Of a stretch of DNA of 64,000 nt, positions 33,891-60,335 are shown in pieces. The notes below the pieces were generated by a model. That model did not search any database, was not told the DNA's origin, and worked only from the letters and a program-made list of their open reading frames with translations. Every line of letters starts with the position of its first letter. Position 1 is the stretch's first letter. The position numbers and the translations under genes are program-made. The stretch is from assembly GCA_019055375.1 (NCBI GenBank), contig JAHQIW010007341.1, positions 18,551 to 82,550 on the forward strand, in the 5' to 3' direction. The DNA comes from Parelaphostrongylus tenuis (taxonomy: Eukaryota; Nematoda; Chromadorea; Rhabditida; Metastrongylidae).

Positions 33891-33923
33891 TGTTTTATAG
33901 GTCTGTTAATGGGCTCTTGTACA

Positions 33924-33966
33924 GCCCGATACAAGTGTTTCGGCCTTGCAGCCTCGTCAGTAGGGC
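33924..33966 (-). ncRNA. Hammerhead ribozyme D1
   Basis: Minus strand: GCCCTA, CTGACGA, GGCT-GCAA-GGCC, GAAA, CACTTGT, A, TCGGGC. Stem II is four pairs capped by a GNRA loop (GCAA), stem III is ACA/UGU, and the cleavage base is A. Stem I has one mismatch (U-C) among six. The core is intact. Type I arrangement. Confidence 0.75.
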
Positions 33967-34275
33967 CGGCTCTTCGACTTTAGCCAATCCACTCGGGGGC
34001 TCCTACTTCCCCTACAAGAGCCCATTAATAGACGGCATAACATCTTCGTTCAAGTAATAATCAAGACCTATATTGAAATTTGAGCGTAGTCTTAATAAAG
34101 CACTCGAAATAGAAGGTATAATATTACAAAAATACCAGCCAAGAGAAACCGAGAGTGCCGAAAATTGCCAATCTTGTGATTTGTCACTTGACGGCGGTTG
34201 TGTAAATCGTTCGTCGTTGTTTACCTCTTTTAGGGGAGTAGGAGCTCGAGAGCGTTTGCTAAAGACGAAAGGGCT

Positions 34276-34318
34276 GCCCAACTGACAAGGCTGCAAGGCC
34301 GAAACACTTGTATCGGGC
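34276..34318 (+). ncRNA. Hammerhead ribozyme D2, core mutated
   Basis: GCCCAA, CTGACAA, GGCT-GCAA-GGCC, GAAA, CACTTGT, A, TCGGGC. Same stems as D1 but the invariant G of the first box is A (CUGACAA), which should abolish cleavage. Confidence 0.7.
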
Positions 34319-34444
34319 TGTACAAGAACCCATTGACAGACCATATGATATGTTAACTCAAATAATAGCTATGAGATATACTGAAAATTAGGCGTGGTTC
34401 TAATAAAAGACTTGAAATAAAAGGTATAATATTGTTTGATTGGT

Positions 34445-35255
34445 TATCTCTTGGTCATCACTGTCATTTCGTTTCTGCGTCGAAACTCTCCTCACCACTA
34501 TAAGATACAATTAATGTGATGTTGTCAACTTTTCAAGCTCACAAATGTTGAGTTTTTGAAGAGGTCTTAGATGCGAGAAGCCACAAAGAAGCATAATGAG
34601 CACAGTTTTTTTGTTGCAAGCCAAACACGAGGCTGTTGTATATACATAACCCCTTTTTATAATCTTTTGCATAACAACCTCGCCTTTAGCTTGCAAAAAA
34701 GCTGTGAAGTACTGAGAATACCGAGGCTACTAAACAGGAGGTCCAGCGAATAATGTGTACGATATAGTTAGTGTTCCCTTCAGAATCACCGTTGTTTGGA
34801 GAGTTTTGCAAAAGTTCTGTGAGATCACATTCGCTCGCGCCAACGCTTTTTCACGCGTCTCAAGTGACAATTTTATGCAATCATTCCGTCTTAATGCGTC
34901 ACATGCTCCTCTTGCAAAGTGTCTTTTGTGATTGAGGAAAAAACGAGATGGAGCTCAATGTGTTTATATGATGGAATGAGCCATTACGGTGGTGTTCTGT
35001 TTATTAATTCGGTGTGAATTGAATGCAATAGCGATGTGGATTAGTTGGAGTTCTGTCTTTTGCGGAATACTACTTGAGGACGGGCAGGGACGCATGGTTT
35101 GCACGACACAAAGGTCGAAATAAAAACCTGCGGTCGAATCGTAGTTCTCTGCATCGTATCACAAGAAAGAAGTACCTACAGCGATGTATTTTATGCTCTG
35201 AAAGCATCCACTTCTACTTCAAAACTATATTCACTTCTTTGACCGACCATGGATA
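34445..35255. other. No gene recognised
   Basis: Nothing recognised. Confidence 0.4.
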
Positions 35256-35257
35256 TA

Positions 35258-35880
35258 ATAAGTTGGGGAAAAAGTTTTGAGAAAATGCCTGTAACTTTTT
35301 GGGTGTCGGCTACTTTTTGTGTTTTTGGGCTTGTTTGAAAGCCCGTCTTCTCCCGCGTTGACTGGTATATTATTTATCTACTTATTTCGACATGGAATTA
35401 ACAAGCGAGCAAATTATGTTGTTGATGATGCACAAATGGCTGTTGGGTTCGAATGCGATGGTGACAGGTGAACGCATCAATCTGATATGGGGTGAAGACA
35501 CAGTTGCCAAAAGCACGGTGTACGGGTGGTTCAAAAAGTTTGACGAATGTGAAGAAAGTCTGGAAGATCAGCCACGTTCAGGTCGTCCAAAAGAAGTTGG
35601 TCGTCAGCTGTGCTTGAAGCAATTTGAAGAAAATCACTCTTTGACAACTCATTCGTTTCTTCAACAGCAGGAAATGGGAATTTAGTGGTCGCGAAATCAA
35701 TCTTTTGCCCAAGAAGTGACAGGAATTGCTTGAAGTTGAAGGGTAGAGTTTCGACTACTAAAGTTATCTTTGTTCGGCTGTGTGATAGGTGCATAAATAA
35801 ATGTTTTACATACATTTTCTCAGGACTTCCTCCCCAATGTATAAACATGTCAAGTGATGAGTTTAGAAATGTGTTATAAA
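35258..35880 (+). pseudogene. Mariner element, 5' end and transposase N-terminus
   Basis: An end-like AAGTTGGGGAAAAAGTTTTG at 35259 precedes an ATG at 35392. The frame reads MELTSEQIMLLMMHKWLLGS, then ERINLIWGEDTVAKSTVYGW and FKKFDECEESLEDQPRSGRP: the two helix-turn-helix units and linker of a mariner transposase, open for 97 codons. It then stops at 35683. Downstream only a faint possible match to the C-terminus remains (GLPPQCINMSSDEF). The catalytic core and the right terminal repeat are missing. It is a different mariner lineage from the H elements. Confidence 0.75.
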
Positions 35881-35884
35881 AAAA

Positions 35885-37560
35885 TTCCATTTTTTTAAGT
35901 CATTTGAAAATCAGTTTAGTCTCTGCTTTAGGAAAAAATTTCGCCCTCTAAAGTTAAATTCAAAAATCCTGTAGAGTTATAAGCTTTTCTCATCTAGAGG
36001 CAATGAACAAAAACATAATCTTTGCTATATGGTCGCTGTCATTGTAGGATTTAGCTCTGAATGCTTCTTATTTCAACATTTCGTTTTCATTTTACTTTAC
36101 CTCAAATCTGCAGAATACCTCTATGAGGCTTTCTCAGGAACGAACACAAAGTTATCCTGATTGACTATTGAATGCCTCGTTAGTAGTTGACTTCCTTAGC
36201 AACCTTGTAATTAAGGATAAACTAGTATTAGAAATGACTGTCGCCTTGGAAGCATCATAATCTCAAGGGCGCTTGTGAACCTCTCTGAGATTCAATCTCG
36301 TAAGGTCAATGAATGCTCGTACGCAGGAATCCCCAACACGAAAATCTCGTTGCACTAACATAGAATTCTCAAGTAATCAGTGCCAGACATGTCAACCAAA
36401 TAGAAAATAGCAGAGTCGTCTTATCTAATCCACTAAAACTACGTAGAATGCTACGCAATTAGTCCAATTCTCCGAGTTTTCATGCCGCAAAAAAAACGTG
36501 TTCAAAATTAAACTAAGAAAATAAATTTTTGCTCACCACTCAATTCTCTTAAATAAATAAAGAAAATAAGTAAAAAATAGAATGAAAATAATGATAAAAT
36601 TATTGTGGATAAGCAGCCCATCGTTGAACTACCTCCATCATCCCATGCTGCCAATCACAGATTATGATATTTATACTCCGTTCGGGATTTTCCCTTCTAA
36701 ATCTCCTCACATCCATGACATTTGCTGACGATGTGTTACATTCCGATGGGATAATCTGACCTAAGCTAGTGGTATCGAGAAATAAATAACGATAAAAGTC
36801 TCACGTAACTCATATCGTGTCATTCCCATGAGACATGCTTTTCAAATATCTCATATGGCATCGAAAGTTCAACTCGATTTATCAAGCAGGCAAAAACTGA
36901 CGTTTCCTCCGGCTGAATTACTGGAACAATTTTGCGGCAATCCATAACAACTAGCTTCCGCAAACCAAACCGTTCTGTTTTTTTTGAATTATGAACCAAT
37001 ATAAGTGCTTCTTCCAGATGCGATATTTTAAGGCATGCTAGACCTAAACCAACTGACTCTTGCCAGCCTATTAGAATAATTGGCCTCGTAGGAGTGATGG
37101 CGGCTAATAAACGAGCAAATAACAAAATGTTGTCACCCGGGCGATACGTAACAGGTCTGACAATTTTTCACTGCTCTCTCAGTTACACTGTTGTGGTTGG
37201 CAATGGCAGTGCAGCAGCTGTTCGTCGCGTCGTCGCAGAACTTCCACGCTGCTCATCGACGACGTCCCTGTCAAACATCATCACCTACACCCATGATTTA
37301 TGACAAAAACAACTGATGCGAATATTTAATCTGTTCGCGGCCACATTTATCCCATCAAAGACATTGTGTCCCAACAATACGACTATTTTTATTGCACCAT
37401 GTGATTATGAAGGATGTCTCACAAAAACTGCGCGCTTAGCCTCATTCTTTTCGAATAATGCAATATCTACGTGATGACTGATCACAAACCAATAAAAATT
37501 TACGACGTATTCTTGAGTACTGCCGCCGCTCAGCTGACCAGAGTATGGTACTATTTTTTG
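35885..37560. other. No gene recognised
   Basis: Apart from the family B scrap at 36530-36550, nothing recognised. Confidence 0.4.
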
Positions 37561-37564
37561 ATGA

Positions 37565-37703
<139 letters not shown>

Positions 37704-37729
37704 GGCATTAAAATTATTATTATTGCTAT

Positions 37730-38145
37730 TATACTTTTATTTCGAGTGTTTTCTCAAGACAACGCCAAATTTCAATAGATCCCTTCATTATTATTTAAGC
37801 CAACATGTCATGTGGTCTGTAAATGGGCTCTTCTACAGCCCGACACACGTGTTTCGACCTTACAGTCTCGTCAGCCGGCCAGAATCCGTCGTCTTTCAGT
37901 CTTCTTAGCCAATCCTTTCGGGAGCTCCTAATCTCCCTATAAAGAGGTAGCGAACACCAACGCTTTACACTCTAAGTCAAGTAAAATTATCACCGAACTT
38001 ACAGTGTTTTACACTCGATTGTCTTTGGCTGGCATTTTCACAATGTTATGCCTTGATTTCGAATGTTTTTTCAAGACCACTGTCAAATTTCAATAGATCC
38101 CCTCATCATTATTTGTGCCAACATGCCATGTGGTGTGGTAATTGT
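37730..38145 (-). mobile_element. Hammerhead element D, about 1.3 monomers (copy D3)
   Basis: The block TTTCGAGTGTTTTCTCAAGA, CAAATTTCAATAGATCCC, ATTATTTAAGCCAACATGTC at 37740-37820 returns at 38050-38140 (TTTCGAATGTTTTTTCAAGA, same CAAATTTCAATAGATCCC, CCAACATGCC): direct repeats about 310 bp apart, with one ribozyme between. This is what a linear copy of a tandem or circular 310-base RNA would look like. Confidence 0.7.
37838..37880 (-). ncRNA. Hammerhead ribozyme D3, cleavage base changed
   Basis: Minus strand: GGCCGG, CTGACGA, GACT-GTAA-GGTC, GAAA, CACGTGT, G, TCGGGC. Core and stem II (GUAA loop) intact, but the cleavage-site base reads G, which hammerheads do not cleave after, unless stem I shifts by one base. 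Stem I keeps four pairs. Confidence 0.65.
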
Positions 38146-38149
38146 TATT

Positions 38150-38760
38150 GTTACTTTCGATGGCGGGCGTTCGCCTTGTTCAGAGGTTGGACATATTTTG
38201 TGTAACGCAGTTTTTCAATGAACGATAACCAGCAGCACCAACAACCATAAGTTACAACAACAACAGCAACTCATACCAATTTCACGTCAGTTAAACAAGA
38301 GCCAACAAAACAACAAACAACAGATTTACATGTAATACGTGTACAATTATGACTCTGCTTTTTTGTGGCTCGAATAGAAGTAAAGATTGAGGTTCACAAC
38401 TTCTTTTTTTGTTTGGAAGTGCAATAAAAACGAAGTTTATTCATGTTTTCACATGCGAAATATATGGGGACTTTATTGAACTTTGGAGATGACGACTTTT
38501 GTACTCGAAAAACGTCATTTCTTAGAATTTGTTAATTTGTAATTTGAATTTTGCATTTTCAAGTGGAAAGCTGACGTTGTAATGTCGGGAGAGTAAGGCG
38601 GATAAGGTAAACTTTCCAAAACCTCCCATTTCGGCTTTTTTTATAACGTTTTCGATCGCTTTTGCAACACAAAGTCGAGCGTTATTATATGCAGCAAAGT
38701 TGCAAAGTTTGTGCCGTTTTCGTTTTTTGATACGATTTTTGCAATGAAATCGCATGAGAT
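38150..38760. other. No gene recognised
   Basis: Nothing recognised. Confidence 0.4.
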
Positions 38761-38764
38761 CGAT

Positions 38765-39030
38765 ATCGTTCAATTGCGCATTTTCTTGCGATCATTTTGA
38801 TATAGTTGTCTGTCCCAACTTTGAGATGAAGATTGTCCTAAGCTCTATTTATAGCTCTATTAATTCCGTGCGCTGCTTCACTAGCATTTTCCTCTACTCG
38901 TCATTCGTGCATGAGTAGCAAGCAAATTTGTTCCGCGACACCTTTATCTTGAGGCAAGTAGAAACATCTTGTACACCAATGTTTGCAAGAAAATGCACTA
39001 TTGAACGAGACGAAAATGCGGCATTGTCAA
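38765..39030. mobile_element. Mariner-derived element, copy H3
   Basis: Left end CGTTCAATTGCGCATTTTCT then TGCGATCATTTTGATATAG; right end on the minus strand CGTTCAATAGTGCATTTTCT then TGCAAACATTGGTGTACAAG. The interior (GCTTCACTAGCATTTTCCTC, CATTCGTGC) also matches H1 and H2. No transposase. Confidence 0.65.
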
Positions 39031-39059
39031 TTACTTTTGGTTAATAAATCTGCGAACTA

Positions 39060-40950
39060 GTGCTTCCACAATTGACGTTTTCGTGTAGAAAAGTCACCAT
39101 GTTCAAAATCCTTTGATCTACCATATAAAACATTTTGTATGGAAAAAACATACAGATAGGTAGCTTTTCTACCGCACTTTTGAACACAAAAAGAATTTGC
39201 ATATGCTTATTTTTCTAGCACTACAGCGAAATAAAGAAAACGGCAGAGTCATATTTGTACACTCAATAATAGTTATTAATGCCTTTGAATATAGAGAAGT
39301 CAGTTATTGAGTTGGAGTTTTATCGTTTAGGAGACTTTTCTCCAAGTCACGAAATCAAAACCGTATAAATGTTCACATGGCATTTTAAGCAATCTCGGTT
39401 ATTTTTGACAATCCCCATGCTAAAAAAGTGATCTTTTTTTTCATGATAAATTCGAATAGTGTTCAAAAACCAAGAAACTGCTTCAATTGCTTCGTCTGCT
39501 ATCGATAGTTCTCATTTCTACTTTCTCGACTTCTATTCCAGTTAACTTTATTGTTATTCTACTAGAGAGGAATGCTACGTTTTCTGTTGCTATGCTTTTT
39601 TCTCTTCTATTCATTTTCTGACATCATTCGAGAAAAACTTTGCATGTCAAATATTGCAGATAGCCATCGTTGGCCCGACGTTAGAACAAAAAAAAAAAGA
39701 CGACGGCCAATTTGTGTCGTCTGTCGCATGCTATCGAAATGTTTATGAATAATGGGAGATGCGCCTGCTTAGTTTAGAAAATCCTATGTTTTCTCATGTC
39801 TTTCGCCTTTTTGTCTTACCGCCGCTTTCGTCTTCCATTGCCTCATCGAGGATCCTATTCTACGCTATCCACCATTGCTCATTAGATTCTCATCACAGGA
39901 GAGCCGGGCTAGGATCACAGCGCGTCTGAGACAATCGTCACTAATCTTCTCAATACATCGACGCCTTGTAGATGGCCTTAATAAAGTTTGCATTAGCACA
40001 GATTGAAAAATTTTGATGTTCAACGAATAACCTGGTAGTATGATCGCCCTGGGATGAATTGACGGTTTTTTGTTCTCTGCGGACTTTACGGGTTGCCATT
40101 CACGACCAAATGCAATTTAGAATAAAGGTAATCATCTGCTGACAACTCTGTACTAATCACTTGTGATTTCTTCTTCTTGGTCTCCCTTTCTCAATGGTGG
40201 TTCGTCATGATTACCAGTATATAGTCAATAAGAAGTTCTCATAAATTGTCTTCTCATTCGTGTTTTCACCCATCCTAGTACTTGGAATCCAGACGGTTCA
40301 CGTCGAATCGTATTTCAGCCAGCGGCCCCAAGACCTCAGTGCCCAAGGGATTGCCAAAACTTGACGGTAGCTCAAAACTTATGTGGAAATGTGTCGATCT
40401 CTGAGTACGACGGCATTTAGACGGGATGAGGATGTAAGCAAAAGCTTTGCAATTTTTCACTGATTTTCTGGATTCATTCATGGAAACAATTTATCCAGTC
40501 ATATGAAAGTATAAGAACTTCCGAAAAATTTTCGCTGTGTCAACATCGTTTCCGGTTTAAGAATTCCTTCTATCGCCTTTTCCAATCTCTTAAGTACACG
40601 ATACTGTCACTCGATCATCTTAAACTCAACTGTTCAACCAGCCATCTCCATCATTCCCACACTTTCGTCTTTTTTCTGATTTTATTAGTTTTCTTCCTCT
40701 CTTTCTCAATTTATTGATCAACTAAAAGTACTCTGAGCCCGGTAATGACACGCAGTAAAAATTATTGACGAAATCTGTTAGTTCTCTTCGCTGTTAAACT
40801 TTCTGATATCACAAATGCTTCCAACAAGTGGTAGCATTTCCCTTGCTCTTCTTCTTCCTTTGCGTGCTATGTTTTCCTATGCCGATTTTTTTTATTAGAC
40901 GTTATTTGATTCCTTTTCAATTGTAAAAGACAAAAGAACTAGACGAAAAG
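39060..40950. other. No gene recognised
   Basis: Nothing recognised. Pyrimidine-rich from about 40560. Confidence 0.4.
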
Positions 40951-40959
40951 GATTGTAAC

Positions 40960-41664
40960 TTGAAGAAGACACCTGCAGCAAAAGAACGAGTGGAATATTT
41001 TTCTTTGAAAGACTCTTCTTTCATGTTCATAGAAGTCCTTCCGACAATTACGTGTTCTTGCCGAGATATAGTTCTTTCAGAATTGCAATTTTACTATTCA
41101 ATTACCAATAATATTCGCTGTAAAGTTGAAACAACTCGCCCACTCAATACAAAAGCAACACGTCAGTTTCTTTTCCTTAGTAGCATAGAAAGGAGATGTC
41201 CTTTTGGAAAACCAAGCTCGTCATTAGAATTTGCATTTTTCAAGCTATCGAATGACTGCAAAATTATAAATATAACTCGTAAAGAGAGCTCATCAAAAGC
41301 TGCAAGCGTGTCCTTTTTCGCAAGAACGTCGTTTTTAGTTAGGAAGTGCCTGGCTTTAGGAAGCATAACGACTGGTTTTACTGAAGTTTCTTCTTTAAAA
41401 CTTCCTCTCAGTGATGATTCATCACATAGTAAAGAGACAATTTTCTCTTACAACCTTAATCAACCATATCTGTATTGGGGAGCGCACCTTCCCCCTAAGC
41501 TGTCCGTACAGAACGGAGACGTGCGATCGTTACATTATTCAACCCTATGGCGACAGGTCTTTTTTACTTTTTTTTCCGAACTCTTAGTAACTGCTCGATG
41601 GCTGAAATCTCGGCAATTCCAACTCTGCGGTTTCTCCTTAAGAAACCGCTTTAATGAATTATAG
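40960..41664 (+). CDS. Unassigned open frame of 234 codons
   Basis: The longest open frame in the window, opening at TTG rather than ATG. At the local base composition a run this long is unlikely by chance. It is rich in Ser and Phe (RKESSSKAASVSFFARTS, LKLPLSDDSSHSKET) and has no motif I know. The plus strand here is pyrimidine-rich, as expected of the antisense of a coding strand. On the minus strand 41442-41163 is also open for 93 codons with a more ordinary composition. The frame may therefore be a shadow of minus-strand exons, or one decayed gene read from the wrong side. Treat it as evidence of coding potential, not as a gene model. Confidence 0.3.
   Translation: MKKTPAAKERVEYFSLKDSSFMFIEVLPTITCSCRDIVLSELQFYYSITNNIRCKVETTRPLNTKATRQFLFLSSIERRCPFGKPSSSLEFAFFKLSNDCKIINITRKESSSKAASVSFFARTSFLVRKCLALGSITTGFTEVSSLKLPLSDDSSHSKETIFSYNLNQPYLYWGAHLPPKLSVQNGDVRSLHYSTLWRQVFFTFFSELLVTARWLKSRQFQLCGFSLRNRFNEL
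41163..41442 (-). CDS. Possible minus-strand exon
   Basis: Minus strand, 93 open codons to a TGA: DESSLRGSFKEETSVKPVVM, LPKARHFLTKNDVLAKKDTL, AAFDELSLRVIFIILQSFDS, then a basic end. An AG-ended GTTGTAAG precedes it. Composition is typical of a soluble protein. No family recognised. It competes with the plus-strand frame 40960-41664. Confidence 0.3.
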
Positions 41665-41895
41665 CAGCGATAGTTAGATTGAGTTTCACACTTGGGATGT
41701 ATCATAGTGGGTAATATCGTTATTTATTGAAATTGTTCTTCACCGTTTCGTAGAAATTGGTAGGTTTTCCATTGGATTTGCAGGAAAAACTTTTTATTAT
41801 CGTTCTATGTGCTTCAGCTCAGATTTTTTGTTGTCAAATAATATAGTACTAATGGTAAGCATAAACACCCTAGGGTTAAAGGCAATAAATATAAT

Positions 41896-42126
41896 CTATT
41901 CGCTGCTCCAGCGCTCTTTGGAGACCTTTTCAAAAACCGAATTTAACGTAGAACCACTTGAATTTATGCTGTCGAATAAGATTAAATCTGTCGAAAGAGC
42001 ATTCGCAAAGCCTACCGCATCGGTGCCATTTGTTGCAAACGTTACGAAATCCTTCCATGCAGCCATTCACAAATCCCCGCCGACAAAAACTACAGCCTCA
42101 GTGTAAAACTCAGTTTTGATTTCGCT
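41896..42126 (-). pseudogene. Minus-strand coding remnant with an in-frame TGA
   Basis: After a strong acceptor (GCGTTTTAG, ending 42128) the minus strand reads EIKTEFYTEAVVFVGGDL, TGA, then MAAWKDFVTFATNGTDAVGF, ANALSTDLILFDSINSSGST, NSVFEKVSKERW and a stop. The run is markedly protein-like on both sides of the TGA, which suggests a decayed gene, or an ATG start just after it at 42066. On the plus strand the same DNA is open for 99 codons. No family recognised. Confidence 0.35.
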
Positions 42127-42419
42127 GCTAAAACGCAACAAAAAAAGTGTTTTTAGGAAATAAGCATAGTATCGGAAATGTACAGACTTCATTCATCGAA
42201 CTGCTATTGAAAAATTGAAAAAAAAAAAACGAAAAAGACCCTGTCATCGAAGGGTTTTGACTTGAAAAATTGATTGGCATAGCAGAAAAATTTCAATTAA
42301 AAATCCCAGTTGTTTTTTTGAGGAAGTCACTTTTGACTTCGACTGTCTAACTCTTTTTCTTGGCTCATCACCTCGTCAACGATCACCTCGGAATAATCAA
42401 TGTTCGTTTTTGCTGATTT

Positions 42420-42620
42420 TTCCCATAAAGCAAGTGCTCCCTTATTCTCACGCTGCACTCCCTCTTCCTCTTCTTCTATTTCCCAATCTTTTCACCTCTT
42501 TGAATTTGTTTTCTGCTTTTTCTGTCCTGCTTGCGGTTAATCCTTCTATTGCCTTCGACTCTCTGCTAAGCTTTTCACCTTCATTCAACTCTTTACCTTC
42601 TGTTGCCTTTGTTAGAATTA
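42420..42620 (-). CDS. Possible minus-strand exon, charged C-terminus
   Basis: Minus strand to a TGA at about 42448: ILTKATEGKELNEGEKLSRE, SKAIEGLTASRTEKAENKFK, EVKRLGNRRRGRG. Strongly purine-rich, Lys/Glu-rich. Its plus-strand shadow (42410-42724) is a Leu/Ser-rich frame. No family recognised. Confidence 0.25.
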
Positions 42621-42729
42621 TGCGAAGGGAATGGTTAGATGTTCTTCAAAATAGTCGTGACATACCTATGACTTCCACTTCACTTTCACAATTTTCACAG
42701 TCTTCGCTTTTATTAGGACATTAAGATAT

Positions 42730-45190: not shown

Positions 45191-45229
45191 GTGTCGGTTC
45201 TCATCGAAGCATTGGCTCGGTTCTTCACA

Positions 45230-46400: not shown

Positions 46401-46479
46401 TTTTCCGAACGCCTCGGGTGTGTTCAAAATCAATACTTTATCGCCAGAGTTTTCTATATTAATGGCGTATATTTATTGG

Positions 46480-47650: not shown

Positions 47651-47728
47651 TTGAACGAAACTCCAACTATGATCGTGTTTATGATGTAGTGATAAGCCTC
47701 TGATAAATGTTATTGGCGTGTAGATCTT

Positions 47729-48588: not shown

Positions 48589-48870
48589 GTTTGAATAAAT
48601 GAATATTTTCTTCTGTTTAGCGGCTCCAAGGTGTTATCGATATAATTTATTGAATATCACCAAAACATACAACAACGCAGTCAGTAATGCAGCCTGAATA
48701 TACAATATTCGAGGCGGCTAACGTTGGTAGCGAAACCTTAGCCACCTCGATTATTGTATATTCAAGCTGCATTACTGACTGTGTTGTTGTATGTTTCGCT
48801 GATATTCAATAAATAATATCAATAACACCTTGGAACGGCTAAACAGAAGAAAATATCCATCTGTTCAAAC
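48589..48870. repeat. Long near-perfect hairpin, 133-bp arms, 16-base loop
   Basis: Left arm 48589-48721, loop 48722-48737, right arm 48738-48870. Matching stretches include ATATTTTCTTCTGTTTAGC, CCAAGGTGTTAT, ACATACAACAAC, CAGTCAGTAATGCAGC and TGAATATACAATA. About a dozen mismatches over 133 pairs by eye, so the arms are recent or selected. It has no ribozyme motif and is not shared with other repeats seen here. Confidence 0.9.
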
Positions 48871-49569: not shown

Positions 49570-49788
49570 GCAAGTCCAATTACTTCCAATATTCAATCAT
49601 TTTTCGTCTTCTTCTTGAACGACGTAGAATACTGGTTGAGCGAGTCTCCTTACAATCTCGAGGATAGCCTGGCTGTGGCGTTCCACAAGGCGTTTGTAGT
49701 TAACCGCCGGAGAGTGTTGGAGTGGGTTTCGGCTTCACACACGTCGCGACAAATTTTGCTACCACTCGGCTACTGCGTTCCATACAAA
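49570..49788 (-). repeat. tRNA-derived SINE, family A, copy 3
   Basis: Minus strand: GCAGTAGCCGAGTGGTAGCA (A box), then the family tail (CGGCGGTTAACTACAAACGC, CTCGAGATTGTAAGGAGAC, GTTCAAGAAGAAGACG). Confidence 0.65.
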
Positions 49789-49791
49789 TAG

Positions 49792-50925
49792 ATAAAAATC
49801 CAATATTCTATGATGATTGCATTGAATTACGCAATTCCCTATATGTCATACACTGTTCCTCTTTGTTGTTTTCTGCAAAGTTTTCATCGTAGCCATCTTC
49901 TGAGAATCAGCTAATAGAAATGAGCGTTGTTAGGACTCTAAAAGAATACTGTTCTCTTAAGTAGGATATATGGTTTTAAAAGGGATTCTGTCTTGGAATT
50001 CAGCGAAGCCGCAATTTTCCGCTCAAAATGTTATAGAGACAACTTCATAGGGTTGTCGTGACATAAGGCTTGTAGGTCGACCAAACTTATGGAATCCATT
50101 TGTTCCGCCTATATCTTTTTGTCACTCCCTCGAACTTCAATGACACTTTTTGTATATCAATTACTGGTATTTAAAGCGTTGTTCGTTGGCGCTCTACCAG
50201 AATTTCGCTTTTATAGACCTTCGATGAATCGCTTGGAAGTGTACTTTGTAAAGCTCTGATCCAAATTTGCAGTGAGTGATTTTGAACAACATTAGAAAAT
50301 CATCATTTTTTCAAAATGATCTTTTTGATTGCAGTTATTAGATGACCAGTAACCACTTTGCAGTTTTTTTTCTACAGTTTCGACTGACACTAAAAACACT
50401 TTACAACTGTTGATTAATGGCGGTTCCTTCGTGACTTCGCTTCCATGCGGTCGATTTACTGCATTCTAGTGAATTGAAAAGATTATTTAAGTAGCAGAAA
50501 ATTTGAGAATTCAAGATTGCCACTCTTCAACTGAAAATGTTAACTGTTCTTCCAAAAAAGTATGATAATCAGCATGATTATTAAAGTATGATTATTAGTG
50601 TTTGGCCTTTATTATCGACAATTCGCATATAACGAGGTCTTTTTTGGGGTCATAAAAATTTGTGTGCCAATGTTTATCGTTCCTATCATAAACTCTGATA
50701 GCCTTTTCGAGGTTTGCTGTCAGTGGCCTACGTAGGGAATATATCGAAGTTCAAGGTTTTCGGAACAGTCAATCAAAAGGCAATGTCTGAATAATCAATT
50801 CATGATGGCCGCGAGTCATCGGCTGAGAAACGCTCGGGCAGGATTTCATTTTGCAAGGTCTTATCATGCTGCGCCTTCACTTCCCAACTATGTAGGGGTT
50901 CTTTCGTTGCGAGTGTTTTCTTAAG
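49792..50925. other. No gene recognised
   Basis: Nothing recognised. Confidence 0.4.
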
Positions 50926-51012
50926 ACCACGATCAAATTTCAAACTATCTCGTAACTATTATTTTAGCGAACATGTCAAGTGGACTGTTGAACGGGCTGG
51001 CTGACTTAGAGA

Positions 51013-51056
51013 GTGCGATACACGTGTTTCGACCTCAACGGTCTCATCAGTAGGGC
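51013..51056 (-). ncRNA. Hammerhead ribozyme D4
   Basis: Minus strand: GCCCTA, CTGATGA, GACC-GTTGA-GGTC, GAAA, CACGTGT, A, TCGCAC. The core and stems II and III are intact. Stem I is poor because the 3' strand has changed (UCGCAC for UCGGGC). Confidence 0.7.
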
Positions 51057-51281
51057 AGTACCCTTTGTCTTCAAACAATCCTCTCGGGGCGCTCACGTGG
51101 CCTTAAGAAAACACTCGAAACGATAGGTATGATATGCTGACGATACCCAAGAGCAATCGACTGTACAACACTTGTGTTCAGCGATAATTGCACTTGACAT
51201 ACAATGTGAAATGCTGATCGTTGCTCACTCTTAGTATAGGGACTGAGCGCCGCGAGAGGATTGGCAAAGACGAAGGGTACC

Positions 51282-51325
51282 GCCCGACTGATGAGACTGT
51301 CAGGGTCGAAACACGTGTATCGGGC
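51282..51325 (+). ncRNA. Hammerhead ribozyme D5, intact
   Basis: GCCCGA, CTGATGA, GACT-GTCAG-GGTC, GAAA, CACGTGT, A, TCGGGC. Stem I pairs perfectly (6 bp), stem II has four pairs with one wobble, stem III is ACA/UGU, the first box and GAAA are consensus, and the cleavage base is A. The short closed stem III and open stem I make it type I. Confidence 0.85.
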
Positions 51326-51419
51326 TTCATAAGTCAGGTTAATTAACAGACCACATGACATGTTGGCTCAAATAATGATTACGAGATATTTAGGGGTAGC
51401 TGTAAAACCTTTGGCTCTG

Positions 51420-52655
51420 ACGAGTCAGGCGAGATCGTCGAAGCGCACGCAAGCCACTAACATAGCAAACCTCGAAAACGCTTGAAACGCTTTCAGAATA
51501 TAGCAAAATTCGAAGACGGAGCTTTGAAAATAGCCGATTGAATAATGCGTTTCTATGATGTTTATATTCTAACTTCATTTCTAGTTTACAATATTGGGCG
51601 CTTAATTATCTATAAGAAAGTTCTCGCTAAATTGTTAATATGATTCGCTTGAGAATCCGTTAGACATCTTCAATGGGTTCATTACATTGTTTTTTGCTCG
51701 AAGTTTTTCCATGGACGCATGGAAGTCTTTTTTAGGCACTACGTAAATCCCTGTTCGAATGTTCAGCACAAGAGGATTCTCAACGAATCGCTTCACTAAA
51801 AGTGGCGTCTCATCTACTATTTTGCTACTAGGTACTTCACATTACCCTGTCTCTGGTAGAGCAAAACTGTGAGATTCTCGATAAATTCTGTGATACCACA
51901 TTAGTATTCCATAGGCATTGCATACGGTCACTCGAATATTCAACAATGTACGAAAGATAGTTGAATCATTGTTTGTGCACTATACGACAGTTCTGAATCT
52001 AAAAAATGTTCGAACGATTGTTTTACGCTTTCGAAGTGACTACCAACCGGTTATTCGGACGCTATTGAAGAGTGCATCGGTTAGTCGAGTTGAATTGCCA
52101 CAAGTTGAATTGTCACGCAACCTCGTAGTGTATGGTATTCATCGATGTTGCGTTCAAAATTCCTACTCTGACGATCCCTTCCATTCCTGTCTCGCCTTAC
52201 ACAGCGAAGTTTGGTTTCCTAGGGTTACTCCTGAATAACTTTTTGCTCTTTTCACTTGAATGCTGTTTTTGTGAGCACTTGTTCGTATATGTTCCTCAGA
52301 CGATTTTTTTTTCATCATTATTGATGACCTTTTTTCTTCTGACGCATCATCGATTCTAACAGCCATCTATCTTGTCCTCTATCTCACCATATATATCTTT
52401 TCAGACGACTGAGTTGCAGTGTTAGTTTTGGGGAGGCAGTAAGAAAGATCCTCTTAAAGGGTATGATTTATACGAAAAGTTCATGGAACTCTTTGTCGTC
52501 GTCGCTCCATATGCAGCATAATACATCAGCGTAAAGCTAAAGCTGACGCAATGAAGTATGAGCTGTCAACGTCACCGCGTCGTTTGTCATCTGATTCATT
52601 GATTCATCATCTCATCTCGTGCCGTCGACGTCCTTAGTTTTATGATGTTACCCAC
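51420..52655. other. No gene recognised
   Basis: Nothing recognised. Confidence 0.4.
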
Positions 52656-52659
52656 AACC

Positions 52660-52850
52660 AATAATGACGTACTGATTCGACAAATACAAAATGTGGCCGT
52701 TGTCGCTCAACGGTTTGAGGTGCTGAGCAATACATAGCAGACTTTGGTTCGGAACTACACCCCGGACATGCTAACCTCTGTCTGTAATCTTTCAGTGTTG
52801 AACAATTGGTACCGAACTCTTGTGGGATGATGAAAAACACTAGTTTAGGA
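52660..52850 (+). repeat. tRNA-derived SINE, family C, copy 5
   Basis: GTGGCCGTTGTCGCTCAACG and GGTTTGAGGTGCTGAGC at the A box side, TTGGTTCGGAACTACACCCC near the B box, and CAATTGGTACCGAACTCTTG at the family mark. Confidence 0.5.
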
Positions 52851-52859
52851 GTCAAATAA

Positions 52860-53910
52860 ATGGATCATTCTTAAACGAACTTATCAACGCCGAACACTTG
52901 AAAACTTAGTTTGAAAGCCAAAAACTTGGCTCATCCTCAAAAGGATTGATCAACGCCAAATACTTCCCTTTTTATGATCTCTCAAATGATCTTGTAAAGC
53001 TTTTTGCAATGTTACCTTTACTCCATAGTGATCGACGTACTGGCATATTCATTTCATCTTCTACAGGAACGGAATCTCGATCATAATGATGAATTTCGGT
53101 CGTAACAATCACCTATTCATTGGCACTGGAGTGAGTATGAAGTCGCTACTAGGTTCCCCCTTCAAATTTTGAAGGACTAATTTTTTTGCCTTTCTGAGGT
53201 TTGATATGGTCAGTGGTTTACGTACGTTTTGGCAGCCACCCGCCTCATATTAAAGATGGGGAGACCGAAATATGTTAAGACCAGACAACATGAAGATAGC
53301 ATTCTTATCAATTAGTCGACTATTTTTGAAGATTCCGCTTTTAGGAATTCAATTTATTCCGTGAGACTTTTTTCGAGCCTTTTCACTCAATTCCACGCGC
53401 TCTTTCAGTTCATAATCAAAAGAGAAACACTTTGATAAAAGCTGGCAATGGTTTCAAAATTGAATTAGGCTTTTGAAAAAAGTTCAACAAATTCTCTACG
53501 ATCTAAGAGGAAGCTCAAACTTAAGTACTAGCCATTATCTAGCTTATCCTCAAGCAATTCGCCGGGAAAATCGACTTGGCATATGAAATCACGGATTTTT
53601 TACCATTGTCATATCATCATGAAAAATTACGGCACTGAAGTTCCTAGCCTAGGACACATATAAACCCAAATGATTACACGGAATACCACCGAGTGTCGAT
53701 GAATTCAGGTTAACGATAAAAGGCTACATGTAACGTGATCATTTTAAATCTAGACAGTTAAGCTTCATTCCATAACCAGGGTATCTTCAGCCTAACGAAC
53801 ACGATCGTATTCAGATAATTGACGGCGGCACGGTAACGTCAGCACCTCACCGTATCGATCGTCGTGGAGTTCTGTTTATCCGATCGATGGCACTGAATCA
53901 ATATTTGGCA
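52860..53910. other. No gene recognised
   Basis: TTTATT at 53353-53358 would be a minus-strand AATAAA for the exon at 53917-54153. Otherwise nothing. Confidence 0.35.
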
Positions 53911-53916
53911 TGGGAA

Positions 53917-54153
53917 TTAGTCGATTACGTCAAGGGCGTGCGTTTGATGTATGTCATTTGCTCGATCGTCATTGTTTTGCTGGATCGGTTGGTCGTCTTC
54001 AGGATGACATCGTCGCACATCGTAAATCATCCTTTTCCTTCTCTTCATTCTTATCGCTAGAGATGTTACGTCTCTTTCATGGATGACGATTCCTGTTGAG
54101 GAATCTGATTCGTCGGAGACTTTTCGTGTCGTCACAGATTGCAGTTCCACATC
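53917..54153 (-). CDS. Probable 3'-terminal exon of an unknown minus-strand gene
   Basis: On the minus strand TCTAATAG (ending 54154) acts as acceptor; its TAG is the in-frame stop that bounds the frame, as expected if the frame starts at the exon edge. The 78 codons read DVELQSVTTRKVSDESDSST, GIVIHERDVTSLAIRMKRRK, RMIYDVRRCHPEDDQPIQQN, ending HALDVID and TAA. It is hydrophilic, with an RMKRRKR cluster and acidic patches, like a cytoplasmic tail. The family is not recognised. Upstream exons would lie above 54.2 kb; none is certain. Confidence 0.45.
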   Translation of the reverse strand, partial: DVELQSVTTRKVSDESDSSTGIVIHERDVTSLAIRMKRRKRMIYDVRRCHPEDDQPIQQNNDDRANDIHQTHALDVID

Positions 54154-54159
54154 CTATTA

Positions 54160-57020
54160 GACATTTCAGAATTTTGAAATAGATCTATAAAAGCCTGGTC
54201 GTTGTGTAGAGCAGCATTTACGTTTTCATTCCTTTTACTTTCTAATAGATTAAGTTACTCCTTTTGTACCGTTTTGGACCATCTTCCCTGCTCTTCCATG
54301 AACCATTTATCCGATGATTTCATTCCATCTCATAGCCTCTTCACCTCCTCCCTAGCAGCATGTCACTGTCTTTATCAGTGTCTCACAAGTACTCTTCTTG
54401 TTTCTTATCTCTTACTGACTGCAATCATTTGTGTCTCATCACTGACTTCTTGTTTGGCATTGTTGTTGTCTGACTTGGGGAGAAGCTTTGCTTGTTTTCC
54501 TTTGCACTGACAGTGCGAGTGCGACTCGTCTATGACTATGCCGCATTGATATTTTCGATGTAGTCGGCTATTCTTAATTACAAATTTAACGTCTTCTCTT
54601 TGTTCTCTTCCAAATCTTCCGTTTCATCTTTTTGCTACTCTCTCGATCTGAAACGATATCAGCGCATGCTTCTACAGTTATACTCTGATTTCTTCAACTC
54701 CCAATTTCCCACTTCATCTTCAGCGAAAGGAACATCGTTTGCATTGTTTTTAGTTCTCAGCTAGCATTCCGATATTTCATTTTGTTCGTTATCTCCTCAT
54801 GAACAGCAACAACAAAGTTCATGGGTTTTTTACGAGCTGTTGCTCTGACATCGAAATGGATGTTTTCGTCGTCAGCGATGATGAGCCAAGCAAGTAGAAC
54901 CCATCAATGCCCGTCGAAAGGAAACGAAGTCAATTCTCAGCCTTATTTCTCATCCCTCCAGAAAAATCTTTGCGCGTCTAGTTGATGGCCATTGCTTTTT
55001 CAAGTACATCTCTGCTGCAAAGAGCCTCTATTCAATGCCTTCGCTTTCCATCAACCTATCATGAAACCTTTCATGATAATATATACATTTTTTTTGTACG
55101 TACGGTCCTCTAAATTGCCTTATTGACTCCTTTTTTCTAGAGCCACTTGAGCCCACTTCAGGTTTTTTCCCACTCGTGAACAGAATGACGCGACCTCAAG
55201 ACAAGTATTCACTTTACCAAGACTGATTACTGATTACTAAATCAATAGTGATTTCAATCCGATGAGCAGTCAAGTTGTGATTGGTTGGTTGGCTGGTTAT
55301 AAAGGGTTTAATACTGACTTTTTCACCGATTCTACTTCCAGTATCCGTTTACGACTTATTTTCTTGATAAACACAGCGCAAAATAGAAATTTTGGTTTTT
55401 CTTAGGGATTTATTTAAAAGTCCTTCTTTTCCTCCTCGAATAACACGATATTTTGTTGGTCTCAGTTTACACATTACACTGTTTTTATTCTTCGTTTCAT
55501 CTTTCTTCACCTTCCTTTATATTTTTGACATGACTTTCAAGGAAGATGAATGAAAAGCGCACAGTTTATGCTCAAAATCTTCTGCTGATGTGGTTGTTTT
55601 ATCCCTTTCTTTGTTTTAAATCTATAGATTACTCTTTATAAATCTAGCAACTCTTTGATTGTTCTCTCTCTCTTCCACTGGATTTCTCAGTAAAGAAGAA
55701 AGTCGACACTGATTCTCTGAAATTCGTACGAAGAGCACATCTCTCTATAATTTTATGGTGATCGTTTTTTGGTAAGCTATCAGATTTGTCTGCTCTATAT
55801 AACTAATTGAGTTGTCCGATAATTTCTTTCGCTTTTAGTCCCTAGTTTTATCAAATTTTTTTCTTGTGTTATGAGTGGTTATAGTTGATAATACTTCTTT
55901 GGCTGGTTTACGGCAGTTTTGTCAATTTTTTTTGTTAACTCGATTGCTACTATTTGAAAAAAAAATTTGACAGTATAATTACCACCATGGCAGTATAATC
56001 ACCATGATATGCAATCATTTGCTGCGGAGCAAAATTGTATGCTTTCCTTCCGGAAGAAATGAGGCTAGCGATCAAAGAAGTCGTGAAGTCACTCTTGGGC
56101 TCGAGGTCTGTAAATATTTTCCCTCCCGCCAATGCTGCTTCAAAGCGCCAAACGATGATAATCCGATGGAAAGATATCAGGGCTATACAGTGGATGTGCT
56201 ACCGTGGTCAAAGCCAGTTTATCCACAATGTGGCTAACCAACTTTACAATGTGAAGTGGTCGGTCAATGCTCAATGGGTGCATAGAAAGATCACTTTGTG
56301 GTAGCCCACTTTATTGAAATGGCGAACGATGATGCCACGGCCGTATTCAATTGTCCGGCTAAAGCTAGTAGAATATTTTTCAACATACCACATCCGTTTG
56401 ACAATAATCCCATTCGATTTAGAAAAAGAAACTGAATAAAACAATGGTGCGAAAGAATTTATGGGGCAATCCATTACCTTTTTGGAACTACTTTTACATT
56501 TTACTTCACACTTCAATTTTAACGACGAGTTGCGCAGTCGTTCATTCATTAAATAGGTATTTTTTGCAAATTAATACGATGTTAGTTCTTCTTCTTTTTT
56601 CAAGCCTCTGACGTCCGATCAATCACAGCTTGGCTTATCACACTCATTTCAGTATTGATCTAGTAACAATTAGTGTGTTTAGTTGAAAACTTTTTTCTTG
56701 AAATCTTCGTTTATTTCTCGGTTCAGGAAACGGGATAAGGGCTTGAAATTGGGCTTAAAGTGGTCTACTCAAATGGTTTTAGAGAGACAGTTCAAGGGAC
56801 TATCCATACCGTATTAGACGCACGGTAGTGAAACGATTAATATTCCAGTTTTGATGCTTTTCACATTAAACTTAAGAATTAAGATAACTGGTCTAATAAT
56901 GGAAAAAGTCAATCAGTTTATGACTTCTCAGATCACTTCACCTCTGAAGGTAATGGAAAAATATTTGGCGTGAAGACACAACTGATTAGGGATCAGGATT
57001 TCAGTCCATTCCTTCCATTT
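54160..57020. other. Pyrimidine-rich plus strand, no firm gene
   Basis: From 54.2 to 55.9 kb the plus strand is rich in T and C, as over the antisense of nematode genes, so introns or small exons of the minus-strand gene ending at 53917 may lie here. A short repeat at 55215-55330 (GACTGATTACTGATTACTAA then GGTTGGCTGG) is shared with 61185-61370. Confidence 0.3.
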
Positions 57021-57025
57021 TTTTT

Positions 57026-57285
57026 AAGTTGAGATAATCTGATAAGGATATGACATATTTTGAGCCATAGGTCTAGTGCTATATAGGCGCCTATTTCGTC
57101 CTATTGGGACTCATCAGTAGCACCCTCCCTCGGTTCCGTCGATCCCTTGAGGTGAAACAATCCTCCAAAGGAACCGACGCCGAGTAAAATTAAGCACCCA
57201 AAGTAGGATGATGTTATTACCTGACTTTGTGGTGACCGGCAGTCGAGCTTACGGCTTTTAGTAAGTTGAGATATTTTTTAAATTG
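57026..57285 (-). repeat. Hammerhead repeat type G, intact copy
   Basis: TAAGTTGAGATAATCTG at 57027 and TAAGTTGAGATATTTT at 57261 may be direct repeats about 235 bp apart bounding one unit. The part after the ribozyme (TCGATCCCTTGAGGTGAAAC, CCAAAGGAACCGACGCCGA) matches 24250-24310 (CAATCCCTTGCAGGGTGA, GCAAAGGAATCGACGCCGA). Confidence 0.55.
57075..57122 (-). ncRNA. Hammerhead ribozyme type G, fully intact
   Basis: Minus strand: GTGCTA, CTGATGA, GTCC-CAATA-GGAC, GAAA, TAGGCGCCTAT, A, TAGCAC. Stem I pairs perfectly over six bases, stem II over four, stem III over five (AUAGG/CCUAU with a two-base loop), and every core position is consensus with A at the cleavage site. Stems differ wholly in sequence from the D ribozymes while the fold is the same, which is strong evidence that the structure is real. 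Confidence 0.88.
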
Positions 57286-57289
57286 TTTT

Positions 57290-59215
57290 TCTTACTTTTA
57301 TCTGTGCACAGACTGAAACGCCGTTCACCTCAGCACCCAAAAGAACTCGAGAAGGTTTTTTTACGAGAAGGCTTTACGCTGCTGAAACGATTGCTTCAAA
57401 TGTTTTCAAGTGGCTGCGTCGATGTTTTCACGTTTTTGTTCTCCGTTGCTTTGTTCCGTACCGCTCGTCACTCTTCATCGTTCAAGTACCCGACTCATCC
57501 CTTACGCTCATTCAGCGTATTTGTTCGACATCAAACACCCACTTGAACAATATATTGTCCTTTTCTGAGAAGTAATTACACTTTCGTTGTCAAGTCGTTA
57601 AAGAGTTATTGATGGAAACGTCCGTTTTCTTATGCGAACAACTTCAATTCATAATTTGCGACTGTCTGCAGTGTTTTTCCTATAACTAAGAGGTATGTGT
57701 GGTATTGTTATGGCAGATACTTTCAACGATTTGTTTTAATGCCCGACTTCTATCGATTCCCCTGGACAAGCCATAGTCCACAAGGTGGAGTCGTGTCTTG
57801 GAGCGACATCCGCTTGATTGGACTAGTATTTTGACGTGGTAACTAGCACTGACCAACGGCCCAAGTCACTATCGGCTCCTACATCTTCCTGGCGGTGTTT
57901 GCACTTTTTCTTTCCAAATTGGCTCCATTTGGCCTTTACATATTGATGCTCATTTTGGCTAACATAATCACTGATGTTTTTTTCTATTTCCTAATAAAAT
58001 GCTCAGTCTGTGCGAGCCTACCTTGATAGAATGTTGTTTTGAATAGAGTACTACTGAGTACTGCCGGAGTTTATTTGATTTTTCATGTTAGACTTTTTCT
58101 GATTTCCGTCGCTTCGCAGGTGGAGGGAAAAAGGTGAATACCTGAGAAAGTTCCTGAACGCACATGATGAAATTTGTGTGATGAAAAATCCGGAAGTATT
58201 GTCGAGAAGTCGATGAGTCTCCAAGTGCACGAAAAAAAAACCACGAGAAGAATGGAGGATAGCCGTTACTCATAGGACCCACAACTTCCAACAAAACTAA
58301 AATAACCATGCTCGAAAGAAGCTTTCATTTATTTGTTTTCATTGGTATTGGACTATCCTTCTGCTTCGTTGTTTCAAATCAATCACATATTTTTGGTGAT
58401 TAACGAAAGCTTTCGCTTAATCGTTAAAGAACATTTGTTTTCTGTTGTTTACTTCTCTTCATACGTTCACTTTTGTTACTGTTTTTATCTTTACGGCTCG
58501 TTTTATTAACTTTCAACATCATTGATGTCTTCGACGGTTTTTAGTTATCCGATTAATCGTTAGAAGTTATTTTTGAGTGGAAACTCTCTAAAGAGTAAAT
58601 TATTCTTCAGGATGAGTACTTAGAACAAATAACACCGTTTGGGGCAGACTCTCATCCGAAGGAAAAAGTTTGAAACGTGAAGAACATCTCTTGGAATATT
58701 TCGTCTTCTGGACAAGCCACTATCACTTTGTTAATGTAAAATAACTTAATTCGGCTTGTCAAAGGCGATAACATTGCAACATTAGACAAACAAAGTTTTC
58801 TTTTTTTTTTCTAGCAGCCTCATGGTATTGGCTCATTAACAAGAAAAACCGATGGGTAATGCCGAAATCAAAGAAAATTCGGTTTTGAAGATGTTTTTTT
58901 CGCGGTGTTTTTTCTCTCCACGGCCCTTTTTGAAACATCTATGTTTTTTCAAGCTGTAGGAACGTCTCTTCGTCAATAATGTTATGGAAACGCACTGCTC
59001 TGTTTTTTTTCCGCTCTCAAATGGGCAAGTTTGTGTACTACTTTTGACATATTCAGCCTACGATCTAAGTGCAAAAGTTTTGAAAGCTCCTGCGATGGGA
59101 ATTCATGTACGATATCTCCAGTAATCCTTTTGAAAACTTTGACAGTTGGAATCTTTCTGACCTTTTCGATCATCGTGTGTAACGTTCCTGCATTGAATTT
59201 CAGGCACTTTAATGC
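57290..59215. other. No gene recognised
   Basis: A frame at 57283-57546 after a CTGTGCACAG acceptor is not supported by any motif. Nothing else. Confidence 0.35.
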
Positions 59216-59218
59216 TAT

Positions 59219-59950
59219 TCAGAGACAAAAAAAGAAGACGGCCCCTTCAGCTGGACAAGAATTTTCCACAAGAGTGTTAGTAATCAATCGAAAGCCTAAA
59301 TTGCTGGCTAGTAAGGTAGGTGCTCCCTTTTTGAGAAACCTCTTTGTAACATTAGAGCAGAAAGAACGCATATTACTCGAAGGACAGCATTGTTTCTTTG
59401 AACTACGAGTAACCATTCGTTAGCGAAAATTTTCACGATTCCAACAATGTGCTTTTTTTCTGGAAGCAACGTTTTTGCCGTAGTGTAGCAGGAAAAGTAA
59501 GATATATAGGCATTGTCTGCCGGCTAGTGCGTGGGCAGGGCGTAAGCGGGGTAAGGGGAGGATGCTGGCCGTGTCCATACGGCGATCAATCGATTGTGTT
59601 GGCGCGTTACACATGTGGAGTGCAATTTTTGTTATTTAATTCGAGATTTCTTCTCCGTTTCGAAAGGAACTTCAGGTAAAATGGATGACTCTAGTAGTGA
59701 CAAGATTTCCTCTACACGTTCATATGCTTTTCGGTGCTTCCAGGAAGTTATAGTGGAAGTGCGCGCAAGGTGTGAAACATAATTTTATTTGGATGCTACA
59801 GCTTTATAGTAACTTATTTTCAAGGAAAAAAGCACGTAGCGCAGTATTCAGATATTTAAGCTTACGAATGACTACTAACTCTTATTAAAAGTTTCTTGTC
59901 CAGCGAAAAGGGTCGTTACTTTGCTTTTTACCGAGTAATATAAAAGAGCC
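59219..59950. mobile_element. Long-inverted-repeat element E, copy 5
   Basis: Left arm 59225-59365 (CCACAAGAGTGTTAGTAATC, CTGGCTAGTAAGG); right arm 59780-59945 (GCTTTATAGTAAC, AGCTTACGAATGACTACTAA, TTGTCCAGCG). GC-rich interior block (GGGCAGGGCGTAAGCGGGG). No transposase. Confidence 0.6.
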
Positions 59951-60104
59951 GAACGTTGTTTTTTATTTTTCTTTTTCGATAGCAATTACTGTTCTCCTCC
60001 TAATGAATGCTCTGTTCGTCATCACCATACTCAGCAGTCTGCTTCCATTAACCCAGTTGAGGCGGCGTGAACCTGTCCTAGTACATGATTAATAAAAGCC
60101 TTTC

Positions 60105-60335
60105 TCGCGAGACAGAAGCTTTTTTCCCAGATTTTCAGAAATCCTTTCATTATTATTTGAGCCAACATGTCATGTGGTCTGGTAAGGGCTCTTGTACAGC
60201 CCGAGACACGTGTTTCGTCCTTACAGACTCATCAGCCGGGCAGATGACATGTTTGGCTCAAATAATAATGAAAGGATCTATTGAAATTTGAGCGTGGTCT
60301 TAATAAAGTACTCGAAGGAAAGGTATAATTTTCAG
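60105..60335 (-). mobile_element. Hammerhead element D, compact palindromic copy (D6)
   Basis: CCTTTCATTATTATTTGAGC, CAACATGTCATGTGGTCTG on the left and CAGATGACATGTTTGGCTCA, AATAATAATGAAAGG on the right are reverse complements flanking a single ribozyme. The right side continues into GAGCGTGGTCTTAATAAAGT and GGTATAATTTT, the standard D flank. Confidence 0.7.
60199..60241 (-). ncRNA. Hammerhead ribozyme D6, intact with GUC cleavage site
   Basis: Minus strand: GCCCGG, CTGATGA, GTCT-GTAA-GGAC, GAAA, CACGTGT, C, TCGGGC. Stem I pairs over six bases (one G-U), stem II is capped by GUAA, stem III is ACA/UGU, and the cleavage triplet is the optimal GUC. Together with D5 it is the best candidate for activity in the D family. 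A small hairpin (GGGCT...AGCCC) follows directly, as in the other D copies. Confidence 0.85.

Follow-up and report, generated by a model that had tools for sequence, protein, structure and literature searches.

Introduction

The metazoan retrozymes without long terminal repeats (LTRs) described in PMC7229834 carry a type I hammerhead ribozyme in units of 170-400 nt with a GC content below 50%, occur in tandem copies, are flanked by target-site duplications (TSDs) of more than 4 bp and co-occur with Penelope-like elements (PLEs). The part of that article available to us names PLEs as strong candidates for mobilizing animal retrozymes, a proposal repeated in the accessible text of PMC11722881; in the corresponding part of PMC7761336, metazoan retrozymes are described as showing no motif that would tell which machinery moves them. 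Here we analyze a 64,000-nt stretch of the nematode Parelaphostrongylus tenuis (assembly GCA_019055375.1, contig JAHQIW010007341.1, positions 18,551 to 82,550; hereafter the window), which contains copies of two families of short hammerhead-bearing repeats, D and E. From the scars that these repeats leave at their insertion sites, both families are most likely non-autonomous retrozymes, copied in trans by the reverse transcriptase (RT) and GIY-YIG endonuclease of PLEs.

Two further described systems bear on this comparison. PLEs with pseudo-LTRs, as far as they are set out in the accessible text of PMC3846280 and PMC11167929, have an inverted arm at the 5' end, a TSD, two alternative 3' ends (the 'tail'), a hammerhead upstream of these ends and an internal start of reverse transcription. 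In one of them, PAc, both strands are cut and extended, and two adjacent internal sites serve as starts for reverse transcription (PMC11167929). The LTR retrozymes of plants (PMC4918200, as described in the available part of PMC7229834) are likewise non-autonomous and hammerhead-bearing, but differ in having a type III hammerhead, LTRs, a primer binding site and a 4-bp TSD.

Families D and E share the listed traits of metazoan retrozymes, including a GC content of 0.44 for both reference units. They differ from them in often being arranged head-to-head with two fixed end sites, an arrangement not described in the text of PMC7229834 available to us, and in their nematode host, the string 'nematod' having no occurrence in the main text of that article. 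As compared to PLEs, the D and E units (~0.3 kb) are without an open reading frame (ORF) for RT or endonuclease, have the canonical short helix III in place of the minimal hammerhead of PLEs, and have ends without a clear sequence match to those of the PLEs of this genome. Among the papers listed by our literature searches, no title or opening of an abstract pointed to retrozyme insertion ends or to nematode retrozymes, and we claim no priority.

Results

Insertion scars and end sites of families D and E

Positions within a copy are given as u, the number of nucleotides past the predicted ribozyme cut, with u1 the first base following it; fetched loci carry L numbers and contigs C numbers. TSDs with a score of at least 11 flank 18/30 unique clusters in family D and 13/29 in family E, as compared to 0.9% of random pairs, and in clusters of at least 85% identity they flank 17/24 and 13/17, respectively; the lower limit of 11 bp is a chosen threshold, and shorter duplications were left out. 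Most supported TSDs are 11-24 bp long and some are longer. They are also rich in A+T (74.6% over 33 TSDs versus 60.1% in the flanks), a value that none of 2000 resamplings reached.

Head-to-head copies predominate. When family E was retrieved with its unit, 29 of 40 clusters were head-to-head, 11 ran in a single direction and none was tail-to-tail. The E set retrieved through the ribozyme, which is unselected for orientation, gave 8 head-to-head, 5 single-direction and 0 tail-to-tail among its 13 TSD-supported insertions. All 18 TSD-supported D insertions are head-to-head, a count biased by their retrieval with a head-to-head query. The tandem form proposed for family D by an initial annotation of the window stands only in part: tandem copies exist, but most TSD-supported copies are seen head-to-head, the D set being biased in that direction.

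The outer ends of these insertions form two clusters ~50 nt apart in both families, with medians at u63 and u113.5 in D (18 insertions) and at u39.5 and u91 in E (8 head-to-head insertions). Ends obeying a 310-bp period, which the initial annotation had led us to expect, were not what was found; as a rule, copies end instead at two fixed sites downstream of the ribozyme. A single insertion typically has one long and one short end. This was so in 17 of 17 classifiable D insertions (of 18; P 7.6e-6 versus independent ends), a count that leaves out L053 and takes L032 by its uncorrected ends, its TSD having run into a simple repeat; in 25 of the 28 classifiable among 29 unit-retrieved E insertions (P 1.1e-5); and in 7/8 ribozyme-retrieved E insertions (P 0.03). 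All three P values are optimistic, given that class assignment was visual and that some of the loci resemble duplicated haplotypes. PAc is cut at +26 of the ORF, with the main start at +111 to +118 (PMC11167929, available part), which by our own subtraction places the main start ~85-92 nt past the cut, close to the long end of family E at u91.

Folds of units D and E show a hairpin around one of the two end sites (site 1), and its AGACC and GGTCT are present in 20/23 D arms and 12/15 E arms, duplicate loci included. The 3' ends read showed no poly(A) tail. A 5' end fixed by the ribozyme cut was considered and rejected as a rule, as only one copy (L029, u3) starts there; in 8/11 single-direction E copies, the start lies at u189-250, just within the ribozyme or upstream of it.

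Penelope-like elements of the same genome

The window itself contains the remnant of a PLE, a GIY-YIG endonuclease at 21346..21687 on the minus strand (Pfam 28.2 bits, cut-off 22.6), for which a protein database yielded no candidate. In the genome, this protein was matched by all 150 scored candidates (of 10541 first-look candidates), from which 30 loci were fetched; figures from genome searches are, here and below, lower bounds or unscored candidates and never copy numbers. In one fetched copy (L083) a single open frame spans RVT_1 and GIY-YIG, and 20/30 have a hammerhead core pattern downstream of the ORF, in our reading with no helix III. Of the 30 copies, 21 could be anchored at the cut, and under strict scoring their 3' ends fall 57-71 nt (10 copies) or 103-118 nt (11 copies) past their own hammerhead cut.

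Five PLE loci, counting the near-identical pair L067/L084 once, have an inverted arm upstream of which both ends can be seen, and 4/5 (L063, L064, L065 and L067/L084) combine one long with one short end, the query limiting the long end to 107. In four further copies (L062, L079, L081 and L089) the inverted arm extends past the edge of the locus, and two of these, L079/L081, form a second near-identical pair. The link between PLEs and retrozymes is one of architecture, without clear sequence homology of the ends. Units D and E themselves gave no match to each other by blastn at a strict setting, though they can be aligned by eye. As a separate observation, head-to-head insertions of family E lie a short distance past the 3' end of a PLE at two loci (L070 2213-2600 and L074 2372-2781), perhaps reflecting a target preference.

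Hammerhead ribozymes

Self-blast and alignment confirmed the six type I hammerheads that the initial annotation had placed in the window, as well as their membership in one repeat family. On inspection, cores and cleavage triplets are intact in 4/6, one of them with a weak stem I, and 2/6 look dead. Insertion A contains a motif at 33924..33966 (minus strand) with an intact core, a GUA site and one stem I mismatch, and another at 34276..34318 (plus strand) that is predicted to be dead through G8A (CTGACAA). The motif of insertion B (37838..37880, minus strand) is predicted to be dead through a G at position 17 and scores 31.6 bits in Rfam, just under gathering. The two motifs of insertion C lie at 51013..51056 on the minus strand, with an intact core and the weak stem I, and at 51282..51325 on the plus strand, where the ribozyme looks intact. 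That of insertion D (60199..60241, minus strand) also looks intact and, at 34.9 bits, is the sole family D motif over gathering. The hammerhead of family E (57076..57123, minus strand) is intact and scores 29.5 bits, under gathering. At E<=5, Rfam did not list four of the six family D motifs; with one above gathering, one just below and four unlisted, Rfam alone would miss most of them. A structural descriptor requiring an intact core recovered 4 window hammerheads, 3 from family D and 1 from family E, as compared to a mean of 0.02 and a maximum of 1 per shuffle in 100 dinucleotide shuffles.

Covariance support extends beyond the motifs first described. Across 28 sequences from three hammerhead families, stems I and II covary, with 93.7% of cells paired versus 78.8% when shuffled; changes on both sides occur in 6/9 stem I/II pairs, and slid controls are 28-48% paired. 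The alignment reflects a choice, its 28 rows being drawn from 43 unique parsed hammerheads after removal of near-duplicates and of E copies with a shifted parse, and the two core-broken D motifs of the window being unparsed. It covers stems I and II, helix III being misplaced between D and E. Minimum free energy folding of single ribozymes was not significant (z -0.58, -0.55 and -1.36). Where the core is intact, the ribozymes of families D and E are predicted to be competent.

Units, arrays and copies in the genome

In the host assembly (481.5 Mb), spliced leader (SL) RNA genes form a tandem array with 36 matches on one contig (C3131, L094), mostly at 568-bp spacing. The leader, read in two copies of the array, is exactly GGTTTAATTACCCAAGTTTGAG, the 22-nt leader of nematode SL1, and this exact leader backs the nematode host that had been inferred for the window. 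Despite it, the SL1 RNA genes score 47 bits in Rfam, well under the family cut-off of 75.

The search for family D gave 648 first-look candidates, of which 40 were scored and returned 91 matches, which places further copies of the family across the genome. For family E, 40 of 2678 candidates were scored and gave 149 matches, many of them 98-99% identical over the whole unit, and therefore family E was active recently. It is a second hammerhead family of the window and is younger than family D. A search with RF00163 returned 119811 candidates, of which 74 were scored with 31 matches, 20 over the cut-off, and 30 loci were fetched. Outside this genome, a single pattern run against each of genome_contigs and viral_contigs gave 0 matches.

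Four full natural units of family D in one array (L058), the one D array seen, measure 321-325 bp, longer than the 310-bp monomer proposed earlier; the units in E arrays measure 282-285 bp. Other tandem arrays occur in L016, L091, L092 and L093, and all arrays lie outside the window. One arm of the C407 insertion (L092) extends over 1486 nt, ~5 E units, and the C149 insertion (L093) consists of two head-to-head arms of ~4 units apiece. All three units (3/3) of the L091 array are identical; L092 and L016 mix variants, and this heterogeneity in two arrays fits a multimeric template as well as a circle. L016 also contains, at 900-1250, a head-to-head pair of a third hammerhead family, with a 5-bp stem II.

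In tripled E units, the longest stop-free frame is 45-62 aa. In D units, antisense open frames reach 97-135 aa, and that of a 321-bp unit of L058 is endless; shuffling gave a median of 73 and a maximum of 191. In the window copies, these frames lie at 34012-34368 (minus strand), 51071-51367 (minus strand) and 37951-38205 (plus strand). Against coding, a net frameshift is present in 56/82 alignments to the frame; in favor of it, changes by codon position (384/392/469) show a slight third-position excess at p 0.005, for copies that are not independent. On these sequence patterns, the D antisense frame is probably not coding.

Insertions and other features of the window

Family D insertion A (33900..34432, plus strand) joins an inverted hammerhead arm head-to-head with a longer direct arm, the 3' end of which lies near u118; the other outer end is near u29, and the TSD-like pair at 33890-33902 and 34432-34444 is weak (11/13 letters, p 0.06). 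Insertion B (37727..38141, minus strand) is a single direct arm of ~1.3 units with its 3' end near u117 and a weak TSD (p 0.06). A (TTA)n microsatellite (37567-37732) lies near this 3' end, and L093 is likewise inside an (AAT)n tract. Insertion C (50900..51386, minus strand) is head-to-head and carries two hammerheads; its outer ends lie near u109 and u56, and its TSD matches at 10/11 positions (left 50889..50899, right 51387..51397). Insertion D (L031; 60144..60327, plus strand), also head-to-head, has a single hammerhead between outer ends near u63 and u114 and a TSD matching at 13/13 positions (left 60131..60143, right 60328..60340). Insertion F (6798..6899) consists of head-to-head flanks without a ribozyme, with outer ends near u103 and u56. 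The family E insertion (57037..57255, minus strand) runs in a single direction, is 98% identical to unit E and has its 3' end near u48; its TSD (left 57019..57036, right 57256..57273) matches at 12/12 positions over 57025-57036. The p-values of the window TSDs, 0.0003 to 0.06, depend on boundaries that we chose. Apart from the second end of insertion A at u29, the window copies mostly follow the two-end-site rule. The direct flank repeats reported at ~310 bp in two copies were recovered at spacings of 308 and 318. Within the window there is no full tandem array of family D; one was found elsewhere in the genome (L058).

Other parts of the window contain a near-perfect palindromic repeat at 48677-48781, similar on both strands to miRNA precursors in Rfam (MIR7994, below cut-off) and probably a foldback resembling a miniature inverted-repeat transposable element (MITE), and a fragment of a mariner-type transposase at 35362-35682 on the plus strand (Pfam HTH_48, 26.3 bits). 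tRNA-like sequences lie at 10145-10217, 11767-11836 and 22407-22480 (minus strand), and because the regions at 11.7-12.1, 22.3-22.5 and 30.9-31.2 kb are mutually similar, short interspersed elements derived from tRNA are likely. For host genes, 10 window ORFs were compared with Pfam and gave no match above cut-off.

Discussion

Families D and E make up a genuine nematode retrozyme system, scattered through the genome and in part young. The initial annotation had proposed a retrozyme family or a relative of one: dispersal, tandem copies and stem covariation bear this out, while the unit of 321-325 bp and the termination of copies at two sites depart from what it described. The reading that we favor, with high confidence, is that D and E, with units of ~320 and ~283 nt and one type I hammerhead in each, are non-autonomous and are copied in trans by the machinery of the PLEs, which are abundant in this genome. 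Read-through transcripts would be cut by the hammerhead into units, which may then be multimeric or closed into circles. The PLE protein would make staggered nicks in the two strands of AT-rich DNA, giving rise to TSDs, and synthesis of complementary DNA (cDNA) would begin internally, at two RNA sites that lie ~50 nt from each other on the downstream side of the ribozyme. Site 1 would be used on one strand and site 2 on the other, with the two cDNAs joined head-to-head. The template would be a circle or an uncut multimer, because it runs through the cut site. In this scheme the start sites are taken from the ends of genomic copies, and the enzymology is that suggested by the PAc element, as given in the accessible text of PMC11167929.

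Several observations weigh against this scheme. The hammerhead of PAc is dispensable for insertion in vitro according to the same text, and a comparable site 1 hairpin was found, by our reading, in just 4/8 folded PLE copies. A profile of 21 PLE 3' regions found neither unit D nor unit E by nhmmer, and the sole sequence link between PLEs and the units by blastn is a single 35-nt stretch at 80% (E 0.05). Under looser scoring, the PLE ends of L063 and L064 fall at 84 and 88, between the classes; L071 has two long ends, and the inverted piece of L075 lies 1 kb downstream rather than upstream. The D query, itself head-to-head, over-represents that form in the D set, and in L057, a D cluster that lacks TSD support, the order is a mixed one, <><>. 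L039 and L042 have short ends (u14 and u33, respectively) outside the D cluster at u56-72. In the unit-retrieved E set, three insertions have two short ends and one has an odd end, and since its query began at u44, short ends given as u44 are censored and stand for u44 to roughly u74. Long and short classes were assigned by eye, and counts are partly non-independent through probable duplicated haplotypes (C3883/C54, C4390 twice, L067/L084 and L079/L081). Our confidence is tempered by L071, L075, the two loosely scored PLE ends and the non-independent loci.

The best surviving alternative, which we consider unlikely, is that D and E units are pseudo-LTRs from other PLE families whose ORF was lost or overlooked. 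PLE copies do have a hammerhead and the same end geometry, and the PLE protein matches 3/63 D/E loci by tblastn (L008, L009 and L016). The remaining 60/63 loci are without PLE coding sequence, with flanks of up to ~1.5 kb on each side covered for L001-L060, and units that follow each other directly head-to-tail, four full D units in L058 and four full E units in L092, leave no space for an ORF. E copies are also 98-99% identical across all 285 bp, and the D and E ribozymes have the short helix III that the PLE motifs seen here do not.

It is less likely still that a long interspersed element (LINE) moves the retrozymes, with twin priming producing the inverted arms and the likeness to Penelope being coincidental, an explanation that we weighed without a LINE search of this genome. 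In L1 twin priming, too, the 5' portion of a copy becomes inverted, and the TSDs that LINEs produce are of comparable length. Twin priming predicts one fixed 3' end, however, whereas here two end sites are fixed, ~50 nt from each other, and most insertions have one of each; the identical two end classes recur in the PLEs of this very genome, and the 3' ends read lack the poly(A) tail. Foldback or MITE-like DNA transposons with a chance hammerhead are very improbable, for although many copies are palindromic and another short palindromic repeat is present in the window (48677-48781), neither a constant TSD length (11 to 24 bp and more here) nor symmetric terminal inverted repeats are found, the arms are unequal, single-direction copies (11/40 E) and multi-unit tandem arrays (L058, L092 and L093) occur, and the ribozyme stems are maintained by compensatory changes.

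Copying by the PLE machinery remains our preferred explanation. The D and E elements fit known metazoan retrozymes, and it is the manner of insertion that seems new. More tentatively, and with rather less conviction than we attach to copying in trans as such, retrozymes may be trans-mobilized RNA parasites of PLEs, with the hammerhead giving rise to a circle that is copied from both DNA strands by a dimer of the PLE protein at a double nick, as a rule from one site on one strand and from the second site, ~50 nt away, on the other. If this is true, the one-of-each pattern would add a new rule to Penelope integration, and the tandem arrays would be accounted for by repeated laps of the circle. 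The rule itself, if it holds, constrains how the Penelope enzyme integrates, a process poorly known so far. The insertion scars described here themselves speak to what mobilizes animal retrozymes: they bear a Penelope signature, with the same two end classes found in PLEs of the same genome. A direct test of the mobilizing machinery would thereby take no more than one protein and a pair of short RNAs.

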